From the IMG/VR virus record IMGVR_UViG_3300008267_000185, positions 1 through 33,447 of that record: 33,447 nucleotides of DNA, one strand, 5' to 3'. The notes below the pieces were generated by a model. It worked only from the letters and a program-made list of their open reading frames with translations, ran no database searches and was not told where the DNA came from. Of this stretch, positions 25,844-28,797 are shown piece after piece (the stretch's first letter is position 1; each line of letters begins with the position of its first letter). This DNA is from a virus. Both the position numbers and the translations under genes were made by a program.

Positions 25844-26112
25844 TGTTCGCTTTCCTCAAACGCCTTGTGAAGCGGTACGGGTTCTTTCATCGCCCCGTTC
25901 AGGTCTATGCGCCAACCGCGCAATGGCAAGAGCATCCGTTCTTTTCCGACGCCGCTAACAGGAACCGACGCCTTGCGCTGATCGTGCAGGAACGGAACGC
26001 GCTCAAGGACGAGCTTGATAAGGCTATCAAGCAGAAGAAAAAGCGTTCTGGCATCTATGCCAAGCTTCGCGCTTTGAGCGTTGAGGAGCTTAACGTCGTG
26101 GCTGGCCGGTGA
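25843..26112 (+). CDS. Basic early protein (89 aa)
   Basis: This runs from ATG 25843. The N-terminal amphipathic helix FAFLKRLVKRYGFF could lie on a membrane. A middle with APTAQWQEHPFFSDAANRNR and a coiled, Lys-rich helix (KDELDKAIKQKKKRSG) follows, ending LSVEELNVVAGR. The tail resembles short phage proteins I cannot name. It overlaps the RusA gene start by 4 nt (GTGA). Confidence 0.65.
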   Translation: MFAFLKRLVKRYGFFHRPVQVYAPTAQWQEHPFFSDAANRNRRLALIVQERNALKDELDKAIKQKKKRSGIYAKLRALSVEELNVVAGR

Positions 26113-26450
26113 TTGAGTTGCCGTTCCCCGCTAAGGACTTGTGGCCTAACTCCCGACCCCACTGGGCTGCAAAGGCCAGAGCCACCAAAAAGCATCGCGC
26201 ATGGGCTTACGCGGCAACCCTCGCAGCCAAGGTTCCAAAGCCTGAAGGCCGCGTGAACTTCATCGTGACCGTTCACCCTCGCGCTACCCGTAAGATCGAC
26301 GCAGACAACGCCATAGCGGCAATGAAGGGATATTTTGACGGCATCGCTGACGCTCTTGGCGTGAATGATAGCACGTTCAATGCGCCGATGGTTTTGTTTG
26401 GCCTTCCGCGTCCTGGTGGTCTGGTCAGGATTGAGGTTCTGGCGGGATGA
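26109..26450 (+). CDS. rusA: RusA-family Holliday junction resolvase
   Basis: This 113-aa protein shows the RusA pattern: an N-terminal strand with LPFPAKDLWPNSRPHWAAK, a central FIVTVHPRATRKIDADNAI and KGYFDGIADALGVNDSTF, containing the conserved Asp residues (DADN...D...DD-like) that bind metal. RusA dimers cut four-way junctions during recombination and resolve branched DNA before packaging. It complements ERF and NinB. The start is GTG, coupled to the preceding gene. Confidence 0.88.
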   Translation: MIELPFPAKDLWPNSRPHWAAKARATKKHRAWAYAATLAAKVPKPEGRVNFIVTVHPRATRKIDADNAIAAMKGYFDGIADALGVNDSTFNAPMVLFGLPRPGGLVRIEVLAG

Positions 26451-27187
26451 CCGAAAAGCTAAAAGCTTTGGACTTGTTCAGCGGCATTGGCGGCTTTGCG
26501 CTTGGGTTTGAGCGGGCCGGAATCGAAACTGTCGCCTTCTGTGAAATCGAAAAATACCCCCGCCAGGTTCTGGCTGAAAGGTGGCCTGATGTTGTTTCCT
26601 ATGAAGACGTGCGAACCCTCACCGCCGCACAAATCCACGCAGACGGATTGCGACCTAACGTCATCTGCGGAGGGTTCCCCTGCCAAGATTTGTCTGTCTC
26701 CGGCAGGCTGGCGGGAATGGACGGAACCCGCTCAGGATTATGGTCGGAAATCGCCCGCCTTATTGGCGAACTTCGACCCGAATACGCGGTCATGGAAAAC
26801 GTCACAAACCTGCTTAGTGGCCCTGCTAACAACCCCGGAGGATGGTTCAGGCTCGTTCTCGGAGACCTGGCCGCGCTCGGGTATGATGCGGAGTGGCATT
26901 GCATACCGGCTGGAAACCTTGGCGCGCCCCACGAGCGAGACCGTATCTGGATTGTTGCCTACCCCCACAGCGCACAACGCGAAGGAGGGGGCATATCCCG
27001 CCGAATACACCAGGAATACACCAACGCTCGCCGCCGTTCTTGGTGGGAGGATAAACCCATCATTCAGCGAACAGCTAATGGGGTTCCCGCACAATCACAC
27101 CGCCTTAAGGCCCTAGGAAACGCGGTGGTGCCGATGATTCCTGAACTGATCGGACGGGCCATCATGGCTGATTGGGCGTCACTATGA
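26447..27187 (+). CDS. dcm: C5 cytosine DNA methyltransferase
   Basis: This 246-aa protein carries the C5-methyltransferase motifs in order: I LDLFSGIGGFALG (~9-20), IV GGFPCQDLS with catalytic Cys79, VI MENV (~116-119), VIII APHERDRIW (~160-168) and X ALGNAVVP (~222-229). At 246 aa the target-recognition region between VIII and X is only ~50 aa, so specificity is unclear. It could protect phage DNA from restriction. ATGA overlap on both ends. A second frame inside it also looks protein-like (see 26589-27116). Confidence 0.9.
   Translation: MTEKLKALDLFSGIGGFALGFERAGIETVAFCEIEKYPRQVLAERWPDVVSYEDVRTLTAAQIHADGLRPNVICGGFPCQDLSVSGRLAGMDGTRSGLWSEIARLIGELRPEYAVMENVTNLLSGPANNPGGWFRLVLGDLAALGYDAEWHCIPAGNLGAPHERDRIWIVAYPHSAQREGGGISRRIHQEYTNARRRSWWEDKPIIQRTANGVPAQSHRLKALGNAVVPMIPELIGRAIMADWASL
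26589..27116 (+). CDS. Putative overprinted protein inside the methyltransferase gene
   Basis: In the +1 frame relative to the methyltransferase, ATG 26589 (AAGGTGG 5 nt upstream) opens 175 codons. The translation includes AEGSPAKICLSPAGWREWTE, YDPN-like ANFDPNTRSWKTSQTCLVAL, SFSETWPRSGMMRSGIAYRL, VSGLLPTPTAHNAKEGAYP, RNTPTLAAVLGGRINPSF and LMGFPHNHTALRP. These strings closely resemble a protein family I recall from many phages, next to or inside C5-methyltransferase genes. Either the overlap is truly dual-coding or those family members are themselves shadow translations. Translation is unproven. Confidence 0.4.
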   Translation: MLFPMKTCEPSPPHKSTQTDCDLTSSAEGSPAKICLSPAGWREWTEPAQDYGRKSPALLANFDPNTRSWKTSQTCLVALLTTPEDGSGSFSETWPRSGMMRSGIAYRLETLARPTSETVSGLLPTPTAHNAKEGAYPAEYTRNTPTLAAVLGGRINPSFSEQLMGFPHNHTALRP

Positions 27188-27552
27188 CGCGCAAATCCTT
27201 CAGCGCCAAAGACCGGCTCCGCATCTTCACGGCTCACAACGGCGTTTGCGGCCTTTCCGGCGTCAAAATCAAGCCGGGTGACGCATGGCACATAGAACAC
27301 CGCGTTCCCGTCGCTCTAGGCGGGTCTAACGACGATGAGAACCTTTACCCGGCTCTTGTTGAGCCTCACGCCTTGAAGACGAAAGACGACGTTAAGGTCA
27401 TCCGCAAGGCTGATCGTCAGGCTGGCAATAAGGGCCAGTGGGCCAGACGACAAAAGCGAGGCTTTGGCCTTATCCAGTCTCGAAACGAATGGCCGAAGGG
27501 CCAGAAACTGCAATCACGCGGCTTCCAGAAGAAGCCCAAGGGGGACCAATGA
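27184..27552 (+). CDS. HNH endonuclease-like protein
   Basis: ATG 27184 overlaps the methyltransferase TGA. This 122-aa protein contains CGLSGVKIKPGDAWHIEHRV, PVALGGSNDDENLYPALVEP and HALKTKDD, which is an HNH beta-beta-alpha-metal core (H-E-H, N, H). The structural CxxC pairs seen in many HNH proteins are absent. The C-terminus is basic with Arg/Lys/Gln. Small HNH proteins in phages often nick DNA during packaging or recombination; which applies here is unknown. Confidence 0.75.
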   Translation: MTRKSFSAKDRLRIFTAHNGVCGLSGVKIKPGDAWHIEHRVPVALGGSNDDENLYPALVEPHALKTKDDVKVIRKADRQAGNKGQWARRQKRGFGLIQSRNEWPKGQKLQSRGFQKKPKGDQ

Positions 27553-28089: not shown

Positions 28090-28113
28090 CAAAAATCACA
28101 AGGGGAAAACGTG

Positions 28114-28797
28114 ATGTTATCAAAAGCTGCAAAAAAGCATTTAGCCGCGATTATGGCGGAATACGGCGCGCTGGACCTGTCAGGCAAAGTCGATTGGCTT
28201 AACGCTATCCGCACCGAACTTCACAACGCTTCGCCGTTCTCCACCGAGCCGGTTGACCTTGTTTTGTGGGAACGGTCAGAGGGCGTGACTGCCAATGACT
28301 ACAACCCGAACAGCGTTGCGCCCCCTGAAATGGAGCTGCTGCGCCTCTCGATCATGGCAGACGGGTACACGCAGCCCGTGGTGACGCACCTTGATGATGA
28401 CGGGCGCGTTGTCGTTGACGGCTTTCACCGGACGCGGGTCTGTAAGGAAAGTCCGGACGTCGCAGCGCGGGTCAATGGTTACCTGCCCGTGGTGACAATC
28501 CGCGATCAGCAGTCCGACCGAAGCGACCGCATGGCGGCGACCATCCGGCACAACCGAGCGCGCGGAAAGCACAAGGTTGACGCCATGAGTGACATTGTTC
28601 TGGAGCTTAAGCGCCGGAACTGGTCGGATGAAAAGATTGGGAAAAACCTTGGCATGGACCCGGATGAGGTTCTGCGCCTTTGCCAAATCTCCGGGCTTGC
28701 AGAGATGTTTGCTGACCGCGCTTTTAGCGAGGCGTGGGAACCTGGCACCATCAATGAAGACGATAACCTTACGGTCGAGCTGGAGGAAATATCGTGA
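28114..28797 (+). CDS. ParB/Srx-fold protein, IbrB-like
   Basis: This ~227-aa protein starts at ATG 28114 with AAGGGG upstream (GTG 28111 is an alternative). The N-terminal third is variable. A ParB-like core has 'NPNSVAPPEMELLRLSIMA', GYTQPVVTHLDDDGRVVVDG and GFHRTRVCKESPD, where GFHRTR is the conserved ParB/Srx box. A C-terminal helix-turn-helix-like segment includes RNWSDEKIGKNLGMDPDEVL. ParB-fold proteins next to a PAPS-reductase-like gene are the IbrB/IbrA pairing seen in E. coli and phages. The biochemical role is not established. Confidence 0.8.
   Translation: MLSKAAKKHLAAIMAEYGALDLSGKVDWLNAIRTELHNASPFSTEPVDLVLWERSEGVTANDYNPNSVAPPEMELLRLSIMADGYTQPVVTHLDDDGRVVVDGFHRTRVCKESPDVAARVNGYLPVVTIRDQQSDRSDRMAATIRHNRARGKHKVDAMSDIVLELKRRNWSDEKIGKNLGMDPDEVLRLCQISGLAEMFADRAFSEAWEPGTINEDDNLTVELEEIS

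Follow-up and report, generated by a model that had tools for sequence, protein, structure and literature searches.

Introduction

The small subunit of M.EcoHK31I, an enzyme of a bacterial restriction-modification system, is 176 aa long and is read from an alternative frame inside the gene of the large subunit. M.EcoHK31I (YGGCCR) is a two-polypeptide C5-methyltransferase. Its large subunit contains motifs I-VIII and X along with the predicted recognition domain, and its small subunit contains motif IX (PMC3404938). M.AquI (CYCGRG) also consists of two polypeptides, divided within the variable region that follows motif VIII, with motifs IX and X in the small one (PMC3404938). In the phage ShiLan element, an HNH endonuclease is encoded out of frame in a phage methylase, as part of an inserted homing element (PMC11855218).

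We analyzed a methyltransferase gene that contains a second, predicted protein in its +1 frame. The gene lies in a viral sequence of 33,447 bases (positions 1-33,447 of IMG/VR virus record IMGVR_UViG_3300008267_000185), referred to here as the window. We call the frame 0 product alpha and the +1 product beta. Beta is nearly the size of the M.EcoHK31I small subunit and, as in that enzyme, lies in another frame inside the gene of the large chain. Compared by published description only, the motif division is also the same: alpha has I-VIII and X, and beta has IX. Unlike M.EcoHK31I, the recognition module of the window appears to be in the small chain, as indicated by selection in the beta frame, exchange of modules, and a disordered segment in alpha. 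The window gene is also in a phage without a recognized partner nuclease. The split of M.AquI is similar to that in the phages Samy, Heather and Jumbo, where IX and X are both in the small chain. In contrast to M.AquI, the window keeps motif X in alpha, and beta begins far inside alpha. In both the window and the ShiLan element, a phage methylase gene conceals a second protein in a different frame. However, the overlap in the window involves the enzyme's own catalytic core. We rejected a ShiLan-type insertion, as the overlap is in conserved catalytic DNA and there is no insert. The +1 protein has already been collected as an ORF in phrog_1008, but the label of that family is silent on an out-of-frame partnership, and beta has no catalytic motifs.

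Results

The methyltransferase locus

No stop interrupts the +1 frame between motif I and position 27116. The frame contains 217 codons from stop to stop, 175 of them after the ATG at 26589. A preliminary description of this DNA had reported the methyltransferase ORF and the 175 open +1 codons, and direct reading bears out both; every peptide that it quoted is present in the sequence. Features are listed in Table 1. Profile matches among the scanned neighboring genes were to RusA, HNH, and ParB-like proteins, the last encoded downstream of the methyltransferase at 28111-28797 (phrog_2159, 2.9e-67).

Table 1. Features of the methyltransferase locus, in window positions.
Feature	Position	Strand	Basis
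RusA-like resolvase; overlaps alpha start by ATGA	26109..26450	+	phrog_34, 3.3e-16
Alpha: C5-cytosine methyltransferase, 246 aa, motifs I-VIII and X	26447..27187	+	profile and structure matches
AAGGTGG, candidate ribosome-binding site of beta, 4 bases upstream of ATG 26589	26578..26584	+	direct reading
Beta: +1 frame protein, 175 aa	26589..27116	+	phrog_1008, 8.8e-21; +1 stop depletion; synonymous constraint
Alpha motif IV (GFPCQ, catalytic cysteine); same DNA read one base on by beta	26672..26686	+	
Doubly constrained core: alpha motifs IV-VIII and conserved beta segment	26735..26948	+	third-base identity; beta consensus
Beta variable module LLPTPTAHNAKEGAYPAEYTRNTPTLAAVLGG, putative target-recognition module	26949..27047	+	sharing with enzymes of distant alpha; beta-frame selection
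Alpha residues 177-223: linker, shadow of beta module and motif IX	26975..27115	+	AlphaFold pLDDT
Beta motif IX-like segment RINPSFSEQLMGFPHNHTALR	27048..27110	+	hhalign; next to motif X on a single chain in actinophages
Alpha motif X (ALGNAVVP)	27110..27133	+	
HNH endonuclease; overlaps alpha stop by ATGA	27184..27552	+	phrog_333, 2.4e-10

Alpha lacks the recognition region and motif IX

We found that alpha is missing parts of a C5-cytosine methyltransferase. Alpha matches phrog_363 (2e-74), and its residues 6-190 match Pfam DNA_methylase (1.7e-43). Motifs I, IV (PCQ), VI (ENV), VIII, and X are all present. However, of M.HhaI, only residues 10-180 (motifs I-VIII) and 292-319 (motif X) were covered by the HMM alignment with alpha, and its recognition region and motif IX were not. 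Foldseek gave a TM score of 0.62 between alpha and M.HhaI over only ~170 columns, with coverage ending after motif VIII. The AlphaFold model of alpha was confident through motif VIII, had pLDDT <50 at residues 177-186 and 192-223, and reached ~96 at the motif X helix. Motifs VIII and X are ~45 residues apart, the gap between them is disordered in the model, and the recognition region and motif IX are absent from the alpha chain. The motif IX pattern was found in alpha in only one of 164 surveyed genes and, in addition, in Gordonia phage Rabbitrun and one further relative (L319). The preliminary description had stated that the methyltransferase frame has all of the C5-methyltransferase motifs. 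This is not so: motif IX and the putative recognition region sit in the +1 frame.

Stop codons are depleted from the +1 frame

We found that the +1 frame is open in relatives of the window gene. A tblastn search with beta matched 48 phage records, and wherever alpha could be located (175 sequences), the beta match was exactly in its +1 frame. So as not to favor genes with beta, we collected a set of 65 distinct genes with the alpha protein alone and counted stops between motifs IV and X. Expected numbers were obtained by synonymous shuffling of each gene's own codons. Approximately 89% (58/65) of these genes had no +1 stop, compared to 1.9 genes expected. The mean number of +1 stops per gene was 0.11 (4.35 expected), and that in frame +2 was 9.7 (8.2 expected). 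In a second set, found with an alpha profile, 38 of 52 genes were free of +1 stops (1.6 expected), and 53 of 56 +1 ORFs matched the beta profile. In contrast, a control family of ordinary C5-methyltransferases had 17.1 +1 stops per gene (17.2 expected) and no block of raised constraint, although this control is looser than a composition-matched one, its expected stop count being higher than that of the family under study. The overlap is real and beyond chance.

In three relatives (L311, L312, and L319), stops interrupt the first third of beta. In each, the frame is open from later starts on and the rest of beta is kept, indicating that the first third of beta may be dispensable. One of the three, L319, is the relative with motif IX in alpha.

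Both frames are under selection

We found that synonymous sites of alpha are constrained where beta overlaps. Third-base identity at four-fold degenerate sites was 0.313 before beta, 0.555 in the overlap, and 0.311 after it (0.257 expected). In bins over codons 97-176 it was mostly 0.41-0.74, compared to 0.31 outside, and it was up to 90% at motif IX. In 57 independent pairs of genes, sharing no sequence, third-position change was 0.492 in codons 1-46, 0.257 in codons 97-176, and 0.49 after beta. It was lower inside the overlap in 53 of the 57 pairs (sign test, p 6e-12). Between the window and its nearest relative (L016), third-position change along the gene was 0.50, then 0.075 (codons 97-176), 0.022 (codons 177-222), and 0.32.

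Mean identity of beta to its relatives was 0.44, compared to 0.25 for a simulated shadow of alpha, and all 136 pairs were above their own simulations; pair statistics other than those of the 57-pair set, these included, are not independent of relatedness. At motif IX, changes fell at the silent position of beta in 42 pairs of the 57-pair set versus 4. In the set found with alpha, identity of the motif IX segment was 59% in the beta frame, 44% in the alpha frame, and 43% in the third frame. Judged by these comparisons, both proteins are constrained in codons 97-176, and selection follows the beta frame in codons 177-222 (module and motif IX).

The preliminary description had proposed a dual-coding locus, provided that relatives conserve both readings, and named two checks: +1 stops in close relatives, which are nearly absent, and synonymous-site constraint in the methyltransferase frame, which is strong and confined to the overlap. 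Stop depletion and synonymous constraint support the proposal.

Beta has a motif IX-like segment and a variable module

All 61 aligned beta proteins matched phrog_1008 ("DNA methyltransferase"). Their conserved segment has the consensus YGxxxPxLLA..SWKTSQ..FSETWPRSGMMRNGxAYxL. The C-terminal end of beta, NPSFSEQLMGFP, is motif IX-like and is preceded by the variable module. When the beta profile was compared by hhalign to ordinary C5-methyltransferases, the sole aligned stretch was INPSFSEQLMGFPHNHT of beta, opposite their motif IX (E 0.05, weak alone). Sequence searches of Pfam, NCBIfam, PADLOC, and the PDB with beta gave nothing useful; no Pfam or NCBIfam model and no solved structure matched. 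AlphaFold predicted beta alone poorly overall (pLDDT 59), with the best blocks (64-84) over residues 121-175, and because of this low confidence the model was not used for a fold search. Its most confident part falls opposite the low-confidence gap of alpha.

We found that the variable module is shared with enzymes that have distant alpha chains. The module of the window, LPTPTAHNAKEGAYPAEYTRNTPTL, was found again in ten other sequences. Among them, L055, L034, and L015 have alpha chains only 34%, 38%, and 37% identical to that of the window, despite a nearly intact common module, TAHNAKEGAYPAEY. Outside L016, identity among the copies was 94% when read in the beta frame, compared to 50% and 47% in the alpha and third frames. 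Because the copies were selected with a pattern in the beta frame, the 94% is inflated, but the contrast with the distant alpha chains and the pile-up of changes at silent positions are still informative. Differences among copies at the first, second, and third positions of beta codons numbered 15, 6, and 113. We infer that the variable modules are target-recognition modules. The preliminary description had guessed that the +1 product is a helper or specificity partner of the enzyme, and a motif IX-like segment together with an exchangeable, recognition-like module fits this guess.

Several LPTPT modules are present in some betas, with up to four by pattern in Samy and ReT1v. These tandem modules (L011:2522-3637 and L014:2228-3157) may represent several recognition domains carried by a single out-of-frame subunit.

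Motifs IX and X move between the chains

We found that motifs IX and X are in different chains in different phages. Both motifs belong to alpha in Gordonia phage Rabbitrun and Rhodococcus phage ReT1v, whose beta ends with the recognition modules. The reverse holds for Streptomyces phages Samy and Heather and for Gordonia phage Jumbo: motif VIII is the last one in alpha, and beta has both IX and X. The alpha-borne and beta-borne IX-X segments are homologous (E 7e-8 to 6e-21, with the search space set to 3e7). The IX-X tail of Samy had no match among PDB sequences. A sequencing error might explain such a shift in a single genome but is an improbable explanation for five phages of two types. This natural transfer is the strongest evidence on what each chain carries. 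Since the IX-X segments are found in either chain, alpha and beta most likely belong to the same enzyme as its subunits, and the parts of this enzyme seem to work together whichever chain bears them. The actinophage difference (e.g., L239:1730-2593 and L235:1838-2891) apparently arose via frame changes at module borders.

Discussion

A probable two-subunit enzyme from overlapping frames

We suggest, with considerable confidence, that the two overlapping frames of the locus each encode one subunit of a single C5-cytosine DNA methyltransferase. Alpha would provide the cofactor-binding and catalytic domain and the C-terminal motif X helix. Beta would be made from the internal ATG with its own ribosome-binding site and would provide the small domain, comprising the recognition module and motif IX. 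Each chain would be incomplete, and the heterodimer would methylate phage DNA. It is probably an orphan enzyme guarding that DNA against host restriction, a role suggested by the phage context. Internal initiation, heterodimer formation, methylation activity, and a target sequence are predictions. With regard to initiation, 37% of relatives had Shine-Dalgarno-like stretches of 5-6 bases before +1 starts, compared to 11% of shuffled genes, and the starts so preceded were mostly ATGs formed by YDD or YED codons of alpha.

The +1 frame might be untranslated and open only by chance, as the shadow of a conserved methyltransferase. In line with this, most tblastn matches of beta sit in genes annotated only as methyltransferase, and beta has no model in Pfam or NCBIfam. 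However, stop depletion, synonymous constraint limited to the overlap, the beta-frame codon signature at motif IX, the shadow simulation, and the negative control all speak against a shadow. Stop depletion, the simulation, and the 57-pair test already refute it in effect, and we consider it scarcely credible.

A programmed ribosomal frameshift might fuse the frames into one long methyltransferase, with no separate beta. This would suit Samy, Heather, and Jumbo, in which alpha stops just past motif VIII, the remainder is in +1, and one shift would give a complete enzyme. However, a single shift in the window would lose motif X, which is in alpha, with motif IX in beta, and Rabbitrun and ReT1v would require two shifts. 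In addition, +1 conservation reaches far upstream of any useful shift site, across motifs IV-VIII, and internal starts with ribosome-binding sites are enriched. We regard a frameshift as unlikely. Less likely still is that beta is a separate protein with another job, such as a regulator or an inhibitor of a host enzyme, overprinted on the methyltransferase by chance. No relative of beta was detected outside its family, and part of beta has no assigned role; both points favor this reading. However, the parts that beta resembles are exactly those missing from alpha, and the IX-X segments change chains.

Occurrence, annotation, and implications

The preliminary description had called the locus possibly widespread but undescribed. 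The first part stands, as the arrangement is present in hundreds of phage sequences, where the usual annotation is a single gene. The second part stands only in part, since M.EcoHK31I has the same motif division (PMC3404938). We found no earlier account of a dual-frame phage methyltransferase in open-licence papers. How widely the arrangement occurs in phages, the location of the recognition module in beta, the exchange of this module between enzymes, and the alternative partitions all seem to be undescribed in that literature.

With more than 150 codons selected in both frames across hundreds of phage sequences, this locus would stand out markedly among same-strand overlaps for its length and wide distribution. 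The transfer of motifs IX and X between chains would make it a natural system for the study of split-enzyme evolution and of overlapping-gene origin. A broader proposal, which we judge about as likely to be right as wrong, is that a class of methyltransferases found throughout phages has its specificity encoded by a second, out-of-frame gene. The recognition modules, in some cases as tandem series, would be swapped between distant enzymes within the beta frame, with alpha tolerating the resulting linker, and methylation specificity could change without touching the catalytic frame.

Because annotation pipelines retain only one frame, alpha is recorded as if it were a whole enzyme, and beta is either missed or mislabeled. 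Alpha cloned alone would probably give an inactive protein. In Stenotrophomonas phage SOVA965 (L003:2600-3100), the beta frame bears the annotation "DNA-cytosine methyltransferase", and no annotation is given for the real catalytic frame. A "hypothetical protein" of Microcystis phage Mwe-JY08 (L004:392-652) is a piece of beta. The prophage copy in E. coli PCP07014 (L238:2501-3262) is annotated as a pseudogene and has an internal stop in alpha, with a stop in beta at nearly the same place.
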